Source: Candidatus Argoarchaeum ethanivorans (GTDB taxonomy: Archaea > Halobacteriota > Methanosarcinia > Methanosarcinales > EX4572-44). Taken from it: DNA of 33,455 nucleotides. The notes under the pieces are model-generated. The model was not told the DNA's origin. It searched no databases and saw only the letters and a program-made list of their open reading frames with translations. Within the stretch, counting starts at the first letter, position 1; every line of letters starts with the position of its first letter. This document shows positions 6,103 through 32,236 of this stretch, piece after piece. A program made the position numbers and the translations under genes. The stretch is taken from assembly GCA_905067555.1 (NCBI GenBank), contig CAJHIS010000008.1:1-33455 (forward strand), read 5' to 3'.

Positions 6103-7704
6103 ATGAACCTGAAAGAAGCTGCTGCCAATAATCCTCACCTCTCTCGTTACGTTGCCGAGTTTACCAGAAAGTCAGGAAAGGCTCCTGTATTTTATGCTTC
6201 TTTATCTAAAGAGATGGGGGATATTGAGTTTATAAATATAATTTATCCAGTCGGCGATCCCATATTTATACATGTATTCGGCGCCAAGGAAAACAGGAAG
6301 TACCATACCATAGAACCCAAGCTAAACAGTGTTGAGAAAATAAAATACAAGAAACTCTTATCCATAATCTTAGAGAAGGCTATACAGGAACCTGTCCCAT
6401 CGGACGATACAGAACTCAGGCAAACCATTATAAAACTCGTTGATAAAAATACCAGCTCGAATACCAGCTTTTTAAACAGGGGTCAGAATAAGGTCCAGAT
6501 AAACCAGAATGAGAAAAAGAAAGTTATTTATTTTATAGATCGAGACATCATCGGAAACTCTATACTTGAACCCATAATGAGGGATCCATATATAGAAGAT
6601 GTCCACAGCATAGGGGCAAATAACATATTCCTCATTCACAAAGTTTTCGATCTGATTGAGACAGATATCAGGTTCGGGGATGAAACCCATCTGTCTAACT
6701 TTTTAAGAAACATGAGTGAGCGCATAGACAGGCCTGTGAGCGAAGCAAAACCAATCGTTGATGCCAGTATGCCTGACGGCTCGAGGATTAATATAATTTT
6801 TAGCAATGATATAAGCAGGCGCGGCGCAAGCTTTACTATACGCAAATTTCAGGATACTCCCTCAAGCATCATACAGCTGATAAAATGGGGAACCATATCT
6901 ACTGAGATAGCTGCCTATCTATGGCTCTGTCTCGAATACGGGATGAGTGCTTTCGTGTGCGGTGAAACTGCCAGCGGCAAAACCACGGCTTTAAATGCTG
7001 CCATGGCTTTTATCAATCCGGCATCCAAGATATTCACTGCAGAAGATACTGCCGAGGTAAAACCTCCGCACAGGGTTTGGCAGCAACTTTTGACCAGGGA
7101 ATCAGGACCTGCAGAATCGAGAGTGGAAATGTTTTCACTGCTCAAGGCGGCCCTGCGTTCTCGTCCGGACTACATAATAGTTGGCGAAATAAGGGGCGAA
7201 GAGGGATCTGTGGCATTCCAGGCTATGCAAACTGGCCACTCAGTCATGGCAACCTTCCATGCTTCATCTGTTAAAAAGATGATTCAGCGCTTTACAGGAA
7301 ATCCCATCAACGTTCCGGTAACTTTCATAGATAACCTCAACATCTGTATAATCCTTCAGGCAGCTTACGTGAAAGGTAAATTCTTACGAAAGTGCACTGC
7401 GATAGAAGAGTTGGTAGGCTATTCACAAGAGGCAGGTGGTGTGATTACCCGGGCTGTTTTCGAGTGGAATCCAAGCACAGATGTACATCTTTTTCGGGGA
7501 TTAAATAACAGCTATATTTTAGAGAACAAAATCGCAGAAAAAGCAGGCTATCTGGATAAGAGGGAGATATACGAAGAGATGTTCCTTCGCGCAAGGATTC
7601 TTGATGAGATGGTTACAAGGGATATTGTAGAATATGATAAGGTTTTGGAAATCATCTCCAGCTACTACTCAAAAGGGATGGATGGTCTTCCTTTTTCCAT
7701 CTGA
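6103..7704 (+). CDS. flaI: Archaellum assembly and rotation ATPase FlaI
   Basis: Type II/IV secretion-superfamily ATPase (533 residues) that powers both assembly and rotation of the archaellum. Visible motifs: Walker A GETASGKT at 287-294, the Asp box region (FTAEDTAEVKPPHR), Walker B with IIVGEIRGEE (Glu362), and the His box (MATFHASSV). The N-terminal ~130 residues form the variable domain. Length is normal for the family. Six nt after flaH and 6 nt before flaJ, so certainly one operon. Confidence 0.96.
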   Translation: MNLKEAAANNPHLSRYVAEFTRKSGKAPVFYASLSKEMGDIEFINIIYPVGDPIFIHVFGAKENRKYHTIEPKLNSVEKIKYKKLLSIILEKAIQEPVPSDDTELRQTIIKLVDKNTSSNTSFLNRGQNKVQINQNEKKKVIYFIDRDIIGNSILEPIMRDPYIEDVHSIGANNIFLIHKVFDLIETDIRFGDETHLSNFLRNMSERIDRPVSEAKPIVDASMPDGSRINIIFSNDISRRGASFTIRKFQDTPSSIIQLIKWGTISTEIAAYLWLCLEYGMSAFVCGETASGKTTALNAAMAFINPASKIFTAEDTAEVKPPHRVWQQLLTRESGPAESRVEMFSLLKAALRSRPDYIIVGEIRGEEGSVAFQAMQTGHSVMATFHASSVKKMIQRFTGNPINVPVTFIDNLNICIILQAAYVKGKFLRKCTAIEELVGYSQEAGGVITRAVFEWNPSTDVHLFRGLNNSYILENKIAEKAGYLDKREIYEEMFLRARILDEMVTRDIVEYDKVLEIISSYYSKGMDGLPFSI

Positions 7705-7710
7705 GGCAAT

Positions 7711-9366
7711 ATGGATTATATTAGAGCATTTTATAGTTTGGATAAAACACCTATAAAGTATATCACTCACTTTATGCTGCCTATAGTCGGTGGTGGGGTT
7801 GCAGTCGTACTTCTTTTGAGTTTTTTAATTCCACAGGCATTTGAAGGTATAACCTCTGTGTTATTGTATACCATCCCGGTTTACATCTTCATATTCACAC
7901 TAATTTACCCAATATTTATCTCAGAACGTAAAAAAATTGATATAGAAAAAAATATTCATTTTTTTATAACTCATATAGGTGCTCTCGCCACCTCTGATAT
8001 GCCAAGAAAAGACCTGTTCAAAACAATTTCAAAAAAACCTGAATATGGTGAGCTTGCAAAAGAGTGCGGCAAATTGTACATGATGATGGATACATGGCAC
8101 ATGAGCCTGGCAGAAGCTTGTCGTTTCTTATCCAAGCAAACACAAAGCAAAATTTTTTCAGATTTTTTAGAACGCTTTGCTCACGCCATGGAATCAGGAC
8201 AAAAGATGGAAGACTTCCTGGGTAGTGAACAGGATGTTGTTATGGTAAATTATGAAGTAATGTACCATGGAGCGCTATATGATCTCGATATGATGAAAGA
8301 AATTTTGGAATCTATCGTTATAACTCTGATTTTTATTATTTCATTTGCAGTTATCATGCCTTTTCTAACGGGCCAGGACATTGTTCAGCTACTGAGCATA
8401 TCTCTTTTCATATTCACCACTGCTGAGATAATGATAGCCTACTTTATGAAAAGTAAGGTTCCACATGATAATATATGGCATTCTCTAAACATGAAAACTG
8501 ACGTTGAGAAGAAGTTTAAACTTTTTTTAATAATCTCTGTGGTTGGTTGTATTATTATTTTTATATTAGTACTATCGGTGGGAAAAACCCTTCCTTTACC
8601 TCTGAAAGCCGCATTATCTTTTACACCTCTTATCATTGCTGGTTTTTTTGTCCGCAAAGAGGAGGTATTAATCAAATGCAGAGATGAGGACTATGCTGAA
8701 TTCATACGCTCACTTGGAAGCTCTGCTGATACGAGGGGGGGGATAATAGAAAAAGCTTTGATGTATATTACTTTACACGATTTTGGGACGCTGAGCAAAA
8801 ATATACGCAACCTTTACAAAAGGCTCAGGACTCGCATTGATAAGCTGGCATCATGGCAACACTTTGAAGCAGAATGTGGTAGCAATCTAATACAGCGCTT
8901 CAGTGAGATGTTTGTAGAATCCCTGAATGTGGGAGGTAAACCTCTTCCTATCAGCAAGATTATAAGCAAGAATTTCGGTAAAATACAGGCACTTAGAAAG
9001 CAGCGCTATCAGAACACCTCCAGTTTCATAGGAATAATGTATGGTCTGCAGGCTGGTATAGCGTTTTCTGTTTACATTTCTTTTGGGGTGGTAAAGATGA
9101 TGAATAATCTCTTTATTAGTATAGATGTGCCTGAAGAAATCACATCATCTCTTCTCTACACTTTTGAACCTTCTGAAATCAATATTATACCTTTTATGCT
9201 TTTGGCAGTGCTTATAGCACACGCCTTGATTTCTGCCGTTTTAATACGAATAGCAGACGGTGGACGTATGCTTAATACGTTGATTCATTTTGTAGGTATA
9301 GTCTGGGTTGGCGCTCTTACTGCTATTGTGGTAGAAAAGATGCTGGCTTCGCTTCTTCCAGGTTAA
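7711..9366 (+). CDS. flaJ: Archaellum membrane platform protein FlaJ
   Basis: 551-residue polytopic membrane protein, the anchor on which FlaI turns. It shows the FlaJ plan: two N-terminal membrane helices, a basic cytoplasmic domain (around residues 75-190), a set of helices (~195-310), a second cytoplasmic domain (~315-430, including RSLGSSADTRGGIIEKAL) and C-terminal helices. Last gene of the archaellum operon. The start ATG follows TGAGG at the flaI stop. No clear terminator is seen in the 93-bp gap to the next gene. Confidence 0.94.
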   Translation: MDYIRAFYSLDKTPIKYITHFMLPIVGGGVAVVLLLSFLIPQAFEGITSVLLYTIPVYIFIFTLIYPIFISERKKIDIEKNIHFFITHIGALATSDMPRKDLFKTISKKPEYGELAKECGKLYMMMDTWHMSLAEACRFLSKQTQSKIFSDFLERFAHAMESGQKMEDFLGSEQDVVMVNYEVMYHGALYDLDMMKEILESIVITLIFIISFAVIMPFLTGQDIVQLLSISLFIFTTAEIMIAYFMKSKVPHDNIWHSLNMKTDVEKKFKLFLIISVVGCIIIFILVLSVGKTLPLPLKAALSFTPLIIAGFFVRKEEVLIKCRDEDYAEFIRSLGSSADTRGGIIEKALMYITLHDFGTLSKNIRNLYKRLRTRIDKLASWQHFEAECGSNLIQRFSEMFVESLNVGGKPLPISKIISKNFGKIQALRKQRYQNTSSFIGIMYGLQAGIAFSVYISFGVVKMMNNLFISIDVPEEITSSLLYTFEPSEINIIPFMLLAVLIAHALISAVLIRIADGGRMLNTLIHFVGIVWVGALTAIVVEKMLASLLPG

Positions 9367-11158: not shown

Positions 11159-12202
11159 TTGACTAATATTGGAATCGTATCCTACGGTGCATACATACCA
11201 AGATATCGAATCAAGATTGAAGAGATTGCAAAGATATGGGGTGATTCTCCTGATGCGATTAAAAATGGATTAAAAGTGTATGAAAAGTCAGTGCCGGATA
11301 TCGACGAAGATACTGCAACCATGGCAGTGGAGGCAGCAAGAAACGCGGTAAAAAGAAAAAACATAGACACAACACGCATCGAGGCTATATACACCGGTTC
11401 GGAAAGTCATCCTTATGCGGTTAAGCCTACAAGCACAATCATTGCAGAAGCAATTAGTGCATCACCTATACTTACAGCAGCAGACGTTGAATTTGCCTGT
11501 AAAGCTGGTACCGCGGCAATGCAGATGTGCATGGGGCTGGTAAAATCAGAAATGATAGACCTCGGGCTTGCCATTGGGTCTGACGTGGCACAGGGTGCAC
11601 CGGGAGATGCCCTGGAATACACGGCAGCAGCGGGGGCAGTTGCATACGTCATCGGTAGAGATGAGCTTGCAGCAGAGATCGAAGAGACCTACTCAGTTAC
11701 AACCGATACTCCGGACTTCTGGAGACGAGAAGGCATGCCATACCCGGAACATGGCGGACGATTTACAGGTGAGCCAGGCTATTTCAAACATGTAACTTTG
11801 GCAGCAAGAGGGTTGATGGAAAAAACGAACACAGCACCAGAAGATTATGATTATGCAGTATTTCACCAGCCAAATGGCAAATTTCCATTCAGGGTTGCAT
11901 CCATACTTGGCTTTACAACGAAACAGCTAAAACCAGGATATGTGGTACCATATCTTGGAAATACCTATTCAGGGTCTGCGATGATGGGGCTTGCAGCCAC
12001 GCTTGATGTTGCAAAAACCGGAGAGCGAATCTTTGTAACCTCTTTTGGTTCTGGTGCAGGAAGCGATGCTTTTAGTATCACGGTGTGTGATTGCATCGAG
12101 GAAATCAGAAACAAAGCACCAACAGTACAGCATCTGCTTGAAAATCCGTTATATCTTAGTTATGGCATGTATGCAAAACACAAAAGAAAAATAAAGGTGT
12201 AA
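11159..12202 (+). CDS. Hydroxymethylglutaryl-CoA synthase, archaeal type
   Basis: Condenses acetoacetyl-CoA with acetyl-CoA to HMG-CoA, the second step of the archaeal mevalonate route to membrane lipids. At 347 residues the length is typical. Catalytic residues are visible: Glu82 in [13 protein letters not shown], Cys114 in [12 protein letters not shown] and His236 in [11 protein letters not shown]. The start is TTG at 11159, supported by GGTGAT 6 nt upstream and by the conserved beginning ([17 protein letters not shown]). Thiolase starts 2 nt after its stop and DUF35 follows, the gene trio whose products form a channelling complex in methanogens. Confidence 0.95.
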
Positions 12203-12204
12203 TA

Positions 12205-13368
12205 ATGAGAGACGTTGCAATAATCGGAATCGGCTGCACAAACTTTGGAGAACTCTGGGACAAATCATTCCGTGATATCTTTGTTGAAGCAGGTGTTATG
12301 GCTATAGAAGATGCAGGTGTGCAGGGTGAAGAGATAGACGCCATCTATCTTGGAAATATGAGCGCTGGCAGATTCATAGAACAGGAACATTTAGCATCAC
12401 TGGCAGCAGACTACGCAGGACTTGCGTCAATTAACATACCCTCAACCAGAGTTGAAGCTGCCTGTGCTTCTGGAGGACTTGCTTTGAGACAGGCTGTTCT
12501 TGCAGTAGCATCAGGCTACCATGACATAGTAATTGCAGGCGGTGCAGAAAAAATGACTGATGTTGACACTGATGCTACAACCGACGTGCTCGCGGCGGCA
12601 GCAGACCGTGAATGGGAAGGAATCATGGGCGCAACATTCCCAAGTATATACGCGATGATTGCACGGCTTCACATGCACAAATATGGCACCACAAGCGAAC
12701 AACTTGCAGCAGTTGCAGTCAAGAACCACTACAACGCGTCCATGAATTCCCGTGCTCAATACCAAAGTCCGGTAAGCATTGAAAATGTACTGAACTCTTC
12801 TCTAATCGCAGATCCCCTTCACCTGCTTGACTGTTCGCCAATAACAGACGGAGCAGCAGCCGTAATAGTCGCACCGGCAGAGATTGCAAAACAATACACC
12901 GATACTCCTATACATATTCTTGCATCTACACAGACAAGCAGCACCATCGCACTACATGATCGTAAAGATATTACAACACTTGATTCTACTGTTGTAGCAG
13001 CAAACAAAGCATTTAACACAGCAAAACTTACCCCAGGCGACATTGACATTGCAGAGGTCCATGACTGCTTTACCATCGCAGAAATCCTTGCCATCGAGGA
13101 TATAGGTTTTTTCAAGAAGGGTGAAGGTGGCAAAGCAACAGAAGACGGGCTCACAGCCATTGGTGCGGAAATACCAGTAAATGCATCTGGTGGACTAAAA
13201 GCCTGTGGACACCCTGTAGGCGCAACAGGCATCAAACAAGCAGTAGAGATTGCAGAACAACTGCGCGGCGAAGCTGGCAGACGACAGGTGGAAGGGGCAG
13301 AGATTGGACTTATTCACAATGTTGGAGGCTCAGGCGGAACCGCGGTTATACACATACTTTCAACTTGA
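12205..13368 (+). CDS. Acetyl-CoA acetyltransferase (archaeal thiolase)
   Basis: 387-residue SCP2-type thiolase that makes acetoacetyl-CoA and hands it to HMG-CoA synthase. The nucleophile is Cys87 in VEAACASGG; the C-terminal active-site elements are [14 protein letters not shown] (His336) and IHNVGGSGG. It is separated from HMG-CoA synthase by 2 nt, and DUF35 follows after a 193-bp gap filled with hairpin repeats. In Methanothermococcus the three proteins form one complex sharing a CoA-binding site, which is expected to hold here. Confidence 0.94.
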
Positions 13369-13380
13369 TTGCTTGACGCA

Positions 13381-13549
13381 CTCGATTACTGCATAATCGA
13401 GAATTAAAGGATACAATTAAGAGTTGTAATTAAGATTCGTTATTTTCTGCACAACGAAGTTGTGCAGTGCTTGCGCACTTGATTACTAACGCAATCAAGA
13501 ATTATTTCCGCACACGTAGTGTGTGGTTCTGCACAACGAAGTTGTGCAG
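13381..13549 (+). repeat. Hairpin repeat cluster between thiolase and DUF35 genes
   Basis: Five palindromes: 13381-13401 (CTCGATTA/TAATCGAG, loop CTGCA); 13447-13467 (CTGCACAAC/GTTGTGCAG, loop GAA); 13478-13499 (CTTGATTAC/GCAATCAAG, loop TAAC, one mismatch); 13508-13526 (CCGCACAC/GTGTGTGG, loop GTA); and 13529-13549 (a second exact copy of the CTGCACAAC hairpin). The last ends just before the ribosome-binding site of the next gene. Spacer ends such as GAATTA recur after several of them. Confidence 0.9.
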
Positions 13550-13561
13550 AGGTGAAAAAAT

Positions 13562-13951
13562 ATGGCAGTATCACGATTTTGGAGAAAACTCAGACACCGG
13601 TATAATCTCATAGGCACCCACTGTACCACGTGTAATACCTATTATTATCCACCAAGAAAGATGTGTCCACAATGTCGGCGAGATGGAAGGATCGAGGAAT
13701 GTAGGTTCAAAGGGAAAGGTGTGATTGTGACCTACACAGTAATTCATGCAGCACCAGAGAATAAGGCAGTACAAACACCTTATGTGCTTGGAATAGTGCA
13801 GCTTGATGAGGGTCCTCGTCTTACAAGCCAGATTGTATGCAAACCGGATGACGCTCGCATTGGGATGAGAGTACAATCAGTTTTTAGAAAACTTGGCGAA
13901 GATAGTGAACATGGCATGATCTACTATGGGACAAAATTCATAGAGGATTGA
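13562..13951 (+). CDS. DUF35 zinc-ribbon/OB-fold protein of the thiolase-HMGCS complex
   Basis: 129 residues with an N-terminal rubredoxin-like zinc ribbon (Cys21, Cys24, Cys35, Cys38 in CTTCNTYYYPPRKMCPQC) and a C-terminal OB-fold (GVIVTYTVIHAAPENK to YGTKFIED). In archaea this protein bridges thiolase and HMG-CoA synthase and helps pass acetoacetyl-CoA between them. GAGGTGA precedes the ATG. It is separated from the thiolase gene by hairpin repeats, which may influence its expression relative to the other two. Confidence 0.9.
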   Translation: MAVSRFWRKLRHRYNLIGTHCTTCNTYYYPPRKMCPQCRRDGRIEECRFKGKGVIVTYTVIHAAPENKAVQTPYVLGIVQLDEGPRLTSQIVCKPDDARIGMRVQSVFRKLGEDSEHGMIYYGTKFIED

Positions 13952-17680: not shown

Positions 17681-18505
17681 ATGATGAAAAAGCTCGGTGT
17701 AATATCCAGATGTGATAGACCTGATGCAATAGCAATGGTCAAAGACCTGCAGAAACACCTTGAAGGAAAGGCTGAACTCTTAATCGACCCGGAAACAGCA
17801 AAGAGACTCAACACAGATGGCGTTCCAGTGGGAGATATGAGAGAGCAGGGCGCTGTGGGACTGGTCTCAGTCGGGGGCGATGGTACGGTACTTCGCGGCA
17901 TACAGGAAATGGAAGATCCGCTTCCTGTGCTTGGTATAAATATTGGTACAATTGGGTTTCTTGTTGATGTTGGTGCACATGAAGCATTTGGTGCGGTCGA
18001 TGAAATCATCGAAGGATTTGAGATAGATGAACGCTCTCGTATTGATGTGCAGATTAATCATCAGTATCTGCCGCCAGCAACCAACGAGGTAGTAATCGTC
18101 ACAGCAAGTCCGGCAAAGATTCTATCGTATACTATCCTTATCAACCAAAAAAAATTAGATGAACTTCGTGCTGATGGGCTTGTACTTGCCACTCCCACAG
18201 GCTCAACAGCGTATGCCATGAGTGCGGGCGGACCTATTATTGACCCAAGGGTTTGTGCCATTGACATTGTGCCGATTGCACCGTTTAAGCTCTCAGCAAG
18301 ACCATGGGTGATACCAGATGACAGCACCATAACAATAAACCTGTCCAACCATGACAAGGATGCTTTTGTTGCAGTTGACGGACAATACACGCAAAAAATA
18401 ACCCACAGTGACACAGTGACAATTACCCGCTGCAGCACGCCAGCAAGATTTATCGTGATTGGGCAAAATGGATTTTATGAAAAAGTGAAAAGCAAACTTG
18501 CATAA
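17681..18505 (+). CDS. nadK: NAD kinase
   Basis: Phosphorylates NAD(H) to NADP(H) in the cytosol. 274 residues with the defining GGDGT motif at 65-69 (catalytic Asp67), the NE pair in PPATNEVVIVT, the conserved LDELRADGLVLATPTGSTAYAMSAGGP split across the substrate site, and a C-terminal beta domain. Start ATG at 17681; ATG at 17684 is equally possible. Ends 5 nt before the next gene, with which it is probably co-transcribed. Confidence 0.95.
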   Translation: MMKKLGVISRCDRPDAIAMVKDLQKHLEGKAELLIDPETAKRLNTDGVPVGDMREQGAVGLVSVGGDGTVLRGIQEMEDPLPVLGINIGTIGFLVDVGAHEAFGAVDEIIEGFEIDERSRIDVQINHQYLPPATNEVVIVTASPAKILSYTILINQKKLDELRADGLVLATPTGSTAYAMSAGGPIIDPRVCAIDIVPIAPFKLSARPWVIPDDSTITINLSNHDKDAFVAVDGQYTQKITHSDTVTITRCSTPARFIVIGQNGFYEKVKSKLA

Positions 18506-18509
18506 AGAG

Positions 18510-19607
18510 ATGACAAAAATGGAGATAAGCGAAACTATTAACACTTCAAGACACACAAAACAAGAGGCAGCTAAAATACTCAAGGATAAATTATCCGAAA
18601 CTGCAATATTAATACTTGTGGGGCCGCAGGGTGGCGGCAAGACCACCGTTGCAATCGAATCTCTTGACGAGAACACCGGGGCAATCTTTGAAGGACGTGT
18701 GCGTGCCGCACAACCGGTAATCATGATTCGAAAAGATGCTGTAAAAAAACTTAAGAACCTGGTGGTAGAACACAGGCCCCTGCCAATTTATGAAGGAGAT
18801 CAACAATTATACACAGAAATTACTGCTTATGACGCCATCCGCGCAACGATTGAAAACATATTCGACATCCTTGAACTTGGGGAAATCGAACTTGCAACCA
18901 AAATAAGCGGCATAGCAAAAGAACACGGGATAGACACCAGAATAATAGAGCTGATTGCTGAGCCAGATGAACTGCGCATTCGCAGGAAATATAGAAAAGA
19001 TGATGCAAAAGCCCGTCTCTCCACTCTCATCTACAAGGAAAAAAAATACCACATCGATTCGGACATCCTGAGTATACAGGGTGCAAAAATACTTGATATT
19101 ATTAATCGGGACAGGGTTGGTGCATTCTCGGATGACGAGATTTCCCGCACCACAGATGATTTTGGTAAAACCATACAAACCGATGGTAAAACCATTGCCG
19201 AGTGCCTTAAAATCCTTATCCAAACATCAAAACAGGAAAAAAGAGAAGCAGGTTTTCTTGTGTTACACAAGTACAAACACGAGCGAATCATAAGCGATAT
19301 TATCCTTGCCGGAGAGCATTCGACGATTGGTGTAACACTGCTTGAAGTGTATGTAGGATTCAGACAGAAGGGCGGAATCCTTGGAATTCAAGAAGTCTAC
19401 AAACCGGATATTGTCGGTGTGATTGAAGTAATACACTCACACCACGGAGATGGTGAATTACTCTCAACTGAAGATCGTGGTGCAGCAGGACGATTTGGGA
19501 TTATCGTAACAGTGATAGGGGCGAACGGACGTATCGATTCCACACATTATCCACGTAAAGAAACACTGCAAGGGATAATGCATGAAGAGCAAAAAACGGA
19601 AAAGTAA
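18510..19607 (+). CDS. P-loop protein with C-terminal JAMM/MPN-like metalloprotease motif
   Basis: 365-residue cytosolic protein that I do not recognise as a named family. The N-terminal part has a Walker A motif GPQGGGKTT (about residues 38-46). The middle is charged and helical. The C-terminal ~130 residues contain REAGFLV (Glu246) and, about 60 residues later, HSHHGDGELLSTED (His309, His311, Ser319, Asp322). This fits the JAMM signature E...HxH-x7-S-x2-D used by zinc isopeptidases of the Rpn11/AfJAMM type. A role in removing ubiquitin-like SAMP modifiers, driven or gated by nucleotide, is therefore conceivable but unproven. Starts TTG at 18498 and ATG at 18519 are alternatives. It sits between nadK and nop5 in one direction with gaps under 10 nt. 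Confidence 0.7.
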   Translation: MTKMEISETINTSRHTKQEAAKILKDKLSETAILILVGPQGGGKTTVAIESLDENTGAIFEGRVRAAQPVIMIRKDAVKKLKNLVVEHRPLPIYEGDQQLYTEITAYDAIRATIENIFDILELGEIELATKISGIAKEHGIDTRIIELIAEPDELRIRRKYRKDDAKARLSTLIYKEKKYHIDSDILSIQGAKILDIINRDRVGAFSDDEISRTTDDFGKTIQTDGKTIAECLKILIQTSKQEKREAGFLVLHKYKHERIISDIILAGEHSTIGVTLLEVYVGFRQKGGILGIQEVYKPDIVGVIEVIHSHHGDGELLSTEDRGAAGRFGIIVTVIGANGRIDSTHYPRKETLQGIMHEEQKTEK

Positions 19608-19615
19608 TTTTTAGC

Positions 19616-20569
19616 ATGTGTGAGAGTATTCAATATTACACGTGGTTTGGGGTTTTCACTATTAAAAACGAAAAAGTTGTTGATTGCAATCTTTTTCCAA
19701 AAGATGCCCATAAGCTTGCAGAACTCATGGAAGAAAGAACTGCAGCGTTTTCAGGCAGTAAAACCTGTTGTATTGATATGGTAAATCTTGCCATAAATCA
19801 GGGTGTTGTTAATACGAGAGAGGAATACTACGACTTACTGCAGGATGTTATGCTTGAAGTTGTAAAAAACAAAATCAGAACACAGTGGACAAAAGATGTT
19901 CAGATAATACAGGCAGCAAGCACGATTGATGAACTCGATAAAATCATAAATCTTCTGCAGGAACGATTAAACACAGGCTACAGTATTCACTTTCCAGAGC
20001 ACGGCATGCACGCACTGAAACTTGCAGAATTAATCACTACTTATGGAAGCAGAAACAACATTCCAGCCGATCATGCACTCTATGAAAAGGCTATAAACTC
20101 TACAGGCATGAATCTTACAGGTCAGGAAGAACAGCTTCTGCAGGCACTTGCAGCAAACATCCTGCATCTGTACAAACTGCGAGGAGAGAGCGAAGATTAC
20201 CTGAATCACACTCTTCCACAGTTTGCACCAAACCTGACGTCTATATTAGGAGCGAATCTTGCGGCACGTATGATAAGCCTTGTTGGCAGCCTTGAAAAAC
20301 TCTCGGAAAAACCTGCAAGCACTGTACAGGTAATTGGTGCAAGCAAGGCTCTGTTCAAACATCTACGTAAACATGCACCATCTCCCAAACATGGAATCAT
20401 ATATCAGCATCCACTGGTAAAGAATGCCCAGTACAAGCTTAGGGGAAAAACATCAAGAGCACTCGCTGGAAAAATTGCTATATCAGCGCGCATCGACTAC
20501 TACAATGGAAGCTTAAATCCACAAACAGAACAGGATCTAAAAAAACGAATTGCACAGATTAAGGGGTAG
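19616..20569 (+). CDS. nop5: C/D box RNP protein aNop5 (Nop56/58 family)
   Basis: Scaffold of the archaeal box C/D RNP that guides 2'-O-methylation of rRNA and tRNA; it binds L7Ae-RNA and fibrillarin. 317 residues: an N-terminal fibrillarin-binding domain (to ~110), a coiled-coil stretch, and the Nop domain from APNLTSILGANLAARMIS through PASTVQVIGASKALFKHL and SPKHGIIYQHPLV, ending RIDYYNGS. It lacks the long lysine-rich tail of some homologues. The usual next gene, fibrillarin, is absent; accessory DNA with an IS1-family element follows directly. Confidence 0.93.
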   Translation: MCESIQYYTWFGVFTIKNEKVVDCNLFPKDAHKLAELMEERTAAFSGSKTCCIDMVNLAINQGVVNTREEYYDLLQDVMLEVVKNKIRTQWTKDVQIIQAASTIDELDKIINLLQERLNTGYSIHFPEHGMHALKLAELITTYGSRNNIPADHALYEKAINSTGMNLTGQEEQLLQALAANILHLYKLRGESEDYLNHTLPQFAPNLTSILGANLAARMISLVGSLEKLSEKPASTVQVIGASKALFKHLRKHAPSPKHGIIYQHPLVKNAQYKLRGKTSRALAGKIAISARIDYYNGSLNPQTEQDLKKRIAQIKG

Positions 20570-31039: not shown

Positions 31040-31102
31040 GCTTAAAATAAATACAAAAAAAGTAAAAGAAAAAAAGAGGTTAAAGAGGTTTTATCGCCTC
31101 TT
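31040..31102 (-). terminator. Terminator of the cytochrome gene
   Basis: On the reverse strand AAAGAGGC and CCTCTTT can pair around the stop codon (about 31083-31102), followed by long T-runs (TTTTTTTC, TTTTACTTTTTTTG). T-runs are the main archaeal termination signal. Confidence 0.65.
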
Positions 31103-32236
31103 TGCAAGATAGAACATTACCAAGAAGAGTCCAAGAAACGCGGTTATAATTCCAAATCCAGGAGATCCTTGAGTTTCTTCTGCTGGTGTTTCTTCTTCTG
31201 CTGGTGGTTTTGTTGCAGGAGCTTCAGTTTCTGGTGGAAGTAGACTGACTAACTGATCAATCCTCTCTTGGGGGATGAATGAACCTCCCTTTCCAAGTAT
31301 TTCACCTTCGCAGCCTTCACAGAACACTTCCGGGTTGTCGTGGCAGAATGCGCAATCTTTTGCCTTATCTGTTACCGTGTGTGAGAACCATTCACCATAT
31401 CCTACATGTGTAGCATTGTTATACATAGTCTCCATCTTCATGAACGGTTTTATCTTGCCATCAGAAGCCACGCCAAGATAGAACTCGTCAGCTGAAAACT
31501 GAGTGCCTGTCCTTGTGTCTAAATGGCAGTTCGTGCAGGTTAGTGACCATCCGGTGTGACATGCTGTGCAGTCAAGTTTATCCTCATGCATAGCGTGCGC
31601 ACCATCATCAGTTGAATACTGCGTTACTGTCATACCCTTGACGGTCTTTCCCGGGCTGTTGTGACAGTCTTCACACGTTGTTTTAACTGCCTCGAGCTGA
31701 CTTGCGTATGTGTTTCCATCACCGTGCAGATCAGCCGCACCATGGCAGTCCGTGCATATTAAACCCTTCTCATAGTGAATATCAGCATGAGGTGCCTTGC
31801 TCTTATGCATCGGCATATCTCCTACAAAGGTTGAGGTTTGTTTTTTGAAGTGGCATGGGTCACATGTATCTATCGTTATCTCTTGAGTTTGGTCACCATG
31901 TCCCATCTTAGCTTCATATCCCACATGGCACTTGTCACAGGTTACAGCATGGCATTTAGCGCAGTTCCACTCTGAATAATATTCATCCATGTCAATTCCA
32001 AACTCTTTTGCCGCATACTTCGTATACTCGTCCTTCATCCCTGCACCGGTGTAATGAAGCGAAGTCGCAAAATTCTCGGCAATTTCCGAGTGACACATTT
32101 CACAGCCACCGAAATCAGTCGCAGCCTCTTCTGCTATCAATGTGGGGGTAGCCTCTTCTGCTACCGATGTACATGCAAGTGACACCGATAGCACTCCTGC
32201 AATAAGCAGAACTAATACATTTTTTACAATATTCAT
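31091..32236 (-). CDS. Nine-haem c-type cytochrome with PGF-CTERM-like surface anchor
   Basis: Extracytoplasmic electron carrier, 381 residues. Signal peptide at 1-26. Nine CxxCH haem sites start at Cys45, 92, 100, 125, 161, 188, 223, 234 and 295. A tenth site at 306 reads CEGCE, lacking the His. After a Pro/Glu/Thr linker (residues ~335-357) comes SPGFGIITAFLGLFLVMF and a basic end (AKRR), which fits the PGF-CTERM signal processed by archaeosortase A, so the protein is probably lipid-anchored on the cell surface. Ribosome-binding site GAGAGG. Likely role: moving electrons across the S-layer or from a membrane carrier. The partner is not in the window. Confidence 0.9.
   Translation of the reverse strand: MNIVKNVLVLLIAGVLSVSLACTSVAEEATPTLIAEEAATDFGGCEMCHSEIAENFATSLHYTGAGMKDEYTKYAAKEFGIDMDEYYSEWNCAKCHAVTCDKCHVGYEAKMGHGDQTQEITIDTCDPCHFKKQTSTFVGDMPMHKSKAPHADIHYEKGLICTDCHGAADLHGDGNTYASQLEAVKTTCEDCHNSPGKTVKGMTVTQYSTDDGAHAMHEDKLDCTACHTGWSLTCTNCHLDTRTGTQFSADEFYLGVASDGKIKPFMKMETMYNNATHVGYGEWFSHTVTDKAKDCAFCHDNPEVFCEGCEGEILGKGGSFIPQERIDQLVSLLPPETEAPATKPPAEEETPAEETQGSPGFGIITAFLGLFLVMFYLAKRR

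Follow-up and report, generated by a model that had tools for sequence, protein, structure and literature searches.

A protein in which a P-loop NTPase domain, a conserved linker and a C-terminal domain with the predicted JAMM/MPN fold are combined in a single chain is encoded in a 33,455-nucleotide stretch of Candidatus Argoarchaeum ethanivorans (contig CAJHIS010000008.1, called the window throughout). The gene is a genuine, unannotated and lineage-restricted P-loop-MPN fusion which exists in MPN+ and MPN- forms. We favor, with a probability of roughly 0.6, a two-domain switch in which nucleotide at the P-loop domain would control, via an invariant linker, how the MPN domain engages a partner. 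The features discussed below are (positions of the window, strand, description):

18519..19607, +, P-loop-MPN fusion gene (362 amino acids from ATG 18519, 365 from ATG 18510; open reading frame and orthologue comparison)
18525..19079, +, N-terminal P-loop NTPase domain, residues 6-190 (weak AAA_33 match, AlphaFold2 model, alignment)
18621-18647, +, Walker A motif GPQGGGKTT, residues 38-46 (sequence)
19062..19175, +, conserved linker, residues 185-222, with SIQGAKILDIINRD and ISRTTDDF (invariant positions in orthologues)
19173..19604, +, predicted C-terminal JAMM/MPN domain, residues 222-365, 144 residues (AlphaFold2, Foldseek, profile comparison)
19245-19247, +, candidate catalytic Glu E246 in KREAGFL (invariant in 56 distinct orthologues)
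19434..19475, +, JAMM loop HSHHGDGELLSTED with H309, S310, H311, S319 and D322
17681..18505, +, NAD kinase gene nadK, upstream neighbor (NCBIfam NAD(+) kinase, E 4.9e-76, below the model cut-off)
19616..20569, +, aNop5/Nop56-like gene nop5, downstream neighbor (NCBIfam NF011121, E 2.8e-77, below the model cut-off)

Results

Gene start and sequence motifs

The reading frame is open from TTG 18498, ATG 18510 and ATG 18519 to the stop codon TAA at 19605-19607. Judged by the N-terminal sequence (MEISETINTS versus MEIEETIDTS in Ethanoperedens), ATG 18519 is the best-fitting and more likely start; residues are numbered here with ATG 18510 as M1. The window protein is 95-96% identical to a Candidatus Argoarchaeum ethanivorans protein, which places the window in an ethane-oxidizing archaeon of the GoM-Arc1 group. 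Both motifs named in the first-pass annotation, Walker A GPQGGGKTT and HSH-x7-S-x2-D, are present as described and with exact spacing, the latter at 19434-19475 with the codons of H309, H311, S319 and D322 starting at 19434, 19440, 19464 and 19473, respectively. The same annotation had claimed an exact JAMM signature including the Glu, which holds for the His/Ser/Asp loop but not for the register of the Glu: it lies two residues before the Gly (E-A-G) in the window protein and three in the ordinary JAMMs of relatives (EACG, EFAG). By chance, sequence composition would produce H[ST]H-x7-S-x2-D roughly 0.002 times in a 33-kb window and 0.07 times in a 1.2-Mb genome. In the loci of relatives, 14 of 542 predicted genes carried the motif, one per locus and in the HSH-bearing lineages only.

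Predicted fold of the C-terminal domain

AlphaFold2 (AF2) modeling yielded a pLDDT of 80.9 and a pTM of 0.80 for residues 222-365, and a pTM of 0.75 for the full-length protein. The modeled order is helix-strand-strand-helix-strand(HSH)-helix(S-x-x-D)-strand, where HSH closes its strand and S-x-x-D opens the following helix, as in MPN proteins. When the domain was compared with the PDB by Foldseek, ranks 1-14 were all occupied by Rpn11, CSN5, PfJAMM1, RadC, EMC8/9 or AfJAMM (E 2e-3 to 6.5e-2, none passing 0.001; probability 0.82-1.00), and the search with the full-length model was led by RadC, AfJAMM and PfJAMM1. AfJAMM and Rpn11, which the first-pass annotation had singled out for structural comparison, are both among these 14 matches.

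Sequence profiles gave a fainter signal. The HSH-bearing alignment rows, a subset picked after the motif had been seen, scored 30.3 against ordinary JAMMs (40 column shuffles reached at most 17.8), with HSH, the S-x-x-D helix and the following strand in register, while comparison of the full set with the ordinary JAMMs of the order was near noise (22.3; shuffle maximum 21.7). E values of 0.008-0.12 were obtained with hhalign against JAMM. The search against MPN+ families that the first-pass annotation had put forward as a check stayed below the curated cut-off: the C-terminal domain scored 12.4 bits against Prok-JAB (PF14464; cut-off 25, E 0.15). Searches of the organism's own genome with Prok-JAB and JAB (PF01398) returned no match at E <= 0.001, and a PDB profile search with the MPN domain returned none either. 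No curated cut-off was reached by the gene in the Pfam and NCBIfam scans, which agrees with its description as overlooked. Based on the models and fold matches, the C-terminal 144 residues are predicted to adopt the JAMM/MPN fold; together with the intact Walker A motif of the complete orthologues, this supports the proposed coexistence of P-loop and JAMM/MPN domains in one chain.

P-loop domain and linker

The N-terminal half has a weak match to AAA_33 (Pfam; E 2.1e-4, residues 34-166, below cut-off). Otherwise only sub-threshold matches to many classes were seen, no named class was reached above cut-off, and a Walker B motif was not identified in the domain. GxxxxGK[ST] is present in the window protein and GPQGxGKT in 112 of 116 alignment rows, the other four being truncated or devoid of the motif; all complete orthologues have an intact Walker A, with K44 and T45 invariant among 56 distinct sequences. 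The helix spanning residues 152-180 follows a strand and carries an invariant RRxxRxxDAxxRL pattern, which may correspond to the Arg-rich LID of P-loop kinases. Invariant residues in the linker are I189, Q190, G191 and A192 (IQGA), D196, R200, R213, and D217 and F218 (DF). A PDB profile search with the P-loop domain gave generic Walker A matches without a family assignment. A defence-system library produced weak matches only, which are best explained by P-loop similarity and were dismissed.

Distribution of orthologues

Across the 238 genomes of the class that were searched, the gene was confined to four families of one order, namely GoM-Arc1 (Argoarchaeum/Ethanoperedens), ANME-2a/b, ANME-2c and Methanoperedens (ANME-2d), and both domains reside in one chain in all four lineages. 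In the strain table of Chadwick et al. (PMC9012536), ANME-2a/b corresponds to Methanocomedenaceae and ANME-2c to Methanogasteraceae. No orthologue came from the fifth family of the order, which its size and genome quality suggest to be Methanosarcinaceae; two borderline matches there span the P-loop region only. A phylum sample of 394 genomes contained weak P-loop matches and no further orthologues, and no relative was found in collections of phages, plasmids and viruses. The suggestion that this is a core gene is thus appropriate within ANME-2/GoM-Arc1 but does not extend to the other relatives surveyed. Within ANME-2c, all five genomes of one genus (g4: G007, G018, G038, G050 and G067; 72-90% complete) were devoid of the gene, which suggests loss or strong divergence.

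Active-site conservation and the MPN+/MPN- split

Among 56 distinct near-full-length sequences, K44, T45, E246, H309, S310, S319 and D322 are invariant. Position 311 is His in only 14 of them, all from GoM-Arc1 and ANME-2c; the other 42 have Tyr (Methanoperedens) or Phe (ANME-2a/b), and HxH-x7-S-x2-D is consequently not conserved across the family. In all 42 HSY/HSF sequences the loop is extended by an insert of some 20-26 residues that starts with HS[YF]T, contains an invariant Leu-Gln and is common to ANME-2d and ANME-2a/b. The five JAMM residues, whose lack of conservation had been named beforehand as evidence against a JAMM site, therefore divide into Glu, first His, Ser and Asp, which are kept, and the second His, which is not.

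Without the second His, zinc should not be bound in the manner typical of JAMM proteins, and a proteolytic role can therefore not be taken for granted for every member of the family. With H311 kept in two lineages only, a zinc-protease reading can hold for two of the four. The replaced zinc-binding His and the loop insert in ANME-2a/b/d make an MPN- module most likely there. In the full gene tree ANME-2d groups with ANME-2a/b (100/99), but the constraint joining GoM-Arc1 and ANME-2d was not rejected for the part preceding the JAMM loop (AU test, p 0.247). A single origin of the HSY/HSF form was therefore not upheld, and the gene tree does not decide between two losses and transfer.

Genomic context

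In the window, nadK ends 4 bp before the P-loop-MPN gene and the nop5-like gene begins 8 bp after it, confirming the reported tight packing between these two genes; this order was found only in the genus Argoarchaeum, and elsewhere the neighbors differ. Ethanoperedens shows the order ahbC-nadK-gene and shares only the adjacency to nadK. In Methanoperedens and ANME-2a/b a co-oriented thermosome subunit gene immediately precedes the P-loop-MPN gene (37 of 56 loci, within L065-L116), an adjacency not seen in GoM-Arc1 or ANME-2c. In several ANME-2c loci (L068, L069, L083) it is followed by a gene for a methyl-CoM reductase component A2-like ABC protein (332 bits, cut-off 517) and then by ahbC. No neighbor is common to all lineages, and we therefore draw no functional link or substrate from the neighborhood; the search for a partner or substrate among these housekeeping-like genes was dismissed.

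Several further observations concern the surroundings of the gene. The Nop5/Nop56-like protein has only 317 amino acids, and its match to the family model starts at position 90; the N-terminal part therefore appears short or divergent. The heme synthesis gene ahbC (12,18-didecarboxysiroheme deacetylase) is two to three genes away in L068, L069 and L083 and in the Ethanoperedens locus L063. HMG-CoA synthase is encoded near the P-loop-MPN gene in 12 loci (L066, L069, L077, L084, L092; L073, L074, L079, L088, L097, L099, L113) and adjoins it in ANME-2c, and in several Methanoperedens its gene lies up to about five genes away, together with those for thiolase and an OB-fold partner. The same HMG-CoA synthase/thiolase/OB-fold trio is located at 11159-13951 of the window, some 4.6-7 kb upstream of the gene. 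The window also encodes a T2SSE/T2SSF-type secretion or pilus pair (6103-9366, +) and a multiheme cytochrome with a c7/c3-type match (31091-32236, -).

Discussion

A proposed two-domain switch and its alternatives

According to the switch model, nucleotide binding or hydrolysis at the P-loop domain would shift the linker, and the movement of the linker would in turn control the engagement of a protein partner by the MPN domain. In GoM-Arc1 and most ANME-2c the protein retains all of Glu/His/His/Ser/Asp and could act as a zinc peptidase or isopeptidase (MPN+). In Methanoperedens and ANME-2a/b, where Tyr or Phe takes the place of one zinc His and the loop is extended, the domain is most likely a binding or scaffold module (MPN-). 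What all orthologues share is thus probably the nucleotide-dependent binding of a partner, not proteolysis, although the invariant Glu, His, Ser and Asp of the HSY/HSF proteins could form an altered yet catalytic site. More tentatively, and with considerable doubt on our side, the orthologues may represent a new type of JAMM protein, gated by nucleotide within a single chain and limited to ANME-2 and GoM-Arc1, in which the site was rebuilt to give orthologous MPN+ and MPN- forms and the MPN- members retained a possibly different chemistry.

The first-pass annotation had suggested nucleotide-controlled removal of ubiquitin-like modifiers or trimming of a partner. The corresponding reading, an active zinc isopeptidase that cleaves SAMPs from their targets under nucleotide control, we regard as rather unlikely, even though the window protein combines an exact JAMM motif with a predicted MPN fold, archaeal JAMMs are described as deSAMPylases (PMC4443979) and Methanoperedens genomes are reported to encode SAMP and E1 (PMC12660748). 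H311 is lost in ANME-2a/b/d despite the SAMP and E1 of Methanoperedens. ThiS/MoaD-like and ThiF/E1-like genes were both found in Ethanoperedens and ANME-2a/b, as well as in one ANME-2c genome devoid of the P-loop-MPN gene; the four Argoarchaeum genomes (G000-G003), incomplete at 57-82%, contained neither a ThiS/MoaD-family match nor a ThiF/E1-family match above cut-off, a result that makes SAMP-type modifier removal somewhat less likely. This uncoupling of SAMP/E1-like genes from the P-loop-MPN gene argues, weakly, against a deSAMPylase role. Separate ordinary JAMM-family genes are in addition already present in 57 of the 60 genomes of the order, and for a complete Methanoperedens genome a structural survey reports two deSAMPylases with the expected active-site residues, while no mention of the P-loop-MPN protein was found in the available text of that survey (PMC12660748). 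The available parts of the literature on JAMM/JAB domains fused to P-loop domains, or on JAMM proteins in Methanoperedens, likewise yielded no such fusion.

Alternatively, the protein might be a P-loop kinase acting on a small molecule or a protein, with a purely structural MPN domain whose JAMM residues are fold-stabilizing remnants. The weak AAA_33-type match, the LID-like RRxxRxxDAxxRL helix after a strand and the loss of the second His in two lineages are compatible with this idea, but no kinase family was reached above cut-off, and the invariance of Glu, first His, Ser and Asp in 56 sequences, together with HSH in 14, exceeds the needs of a scaffold; we consider a kinase of this kind quite unlikely. 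It is hardly credible that a differently folded domain carries the JAMM motif by coincidence. Sequence profiles barely detect JAMM and the Glu is out of register by one residue, but the motif is far rarer by chance than one per window, the 14 best Foldseek matches are all MPN proteins, and the residues, four of five invariant, are located at the strand end and helix start as in MPN domains.

Comparison with known systems

Rpn11 works beside P-loop ATPases in a larger complex, the proteasome coupling it to an ATPase ring, and the proteasome, COP9 and BRISC/BRCA1-A complexes pair MPN+ with MPN- subunits. Complexes that contain Rpn11 and CSN5, from the proteasome lid and COP9, are the top two fold matches of the domain; in those systems ATPase and MPN domains are separate subunits, whereas here they form one chain. 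The window protein resembles AfJAMM (AF2198), PfJAMM1 and HvJAMM1 in its predicted MPN fold and in Glu and HSH-x7-S-x2-D, and the archaeal JAMM/MPN+ deSAMPylase structures 1oi0, 5ld9 and 5lda are among the fold matches. The archaeal deSAMPylases are, however, stand-alone domains of about 105-140 amino acids, while the domain described here follows a P-loop NTPase, has no Pro after HxH, carries its Glu one residue nearer to the Gly and, in most orthologues, has no second His. Similarity to zinc-free MPN- proteins is seen in the EMC8/9 fold matches and in the incomplete ligand set of the ANME-2a/b/d orthologues; the P-loop-MPN family differs from them in that Glu, the first His, Ser and Asp are invariant, with the complete set retained by close orthologues.

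The N-terminal half has Walker A, a LID-like Arg helix and weak Pfam matches in common with P-loop kinases of the AAA_33/AAA_18 type, but it remains below cut-off, has no clear Walker B and is fused to an MPN domain. In bacterial ubiquitin-like operons, JAB domains fused to E1-like domains have been described (Iyer et al. 2006, PMC1779556). These also join a JAB/MPN domain to a nucleotide-using domain, but their partner is an adenylating Rossmann-fold E1 instead of a P-loop NTPase (PMC1779556), and no E1, E2 or ubiquitin-like gene was noted beside the P-loop-MPN gene.

A single chain whose orthologues differ in MPN status would provide a small system for studying the control of an MPN domain by a nucleotide site, and the family would also help to study the interconversion of MPN+ and MPN- forms. 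For the methane- and ethane-oxidizing Methanosarcinales, it represents a conserved gene that is unnamed in protein-family libraries and that was not found in the other relatives surveyed here.
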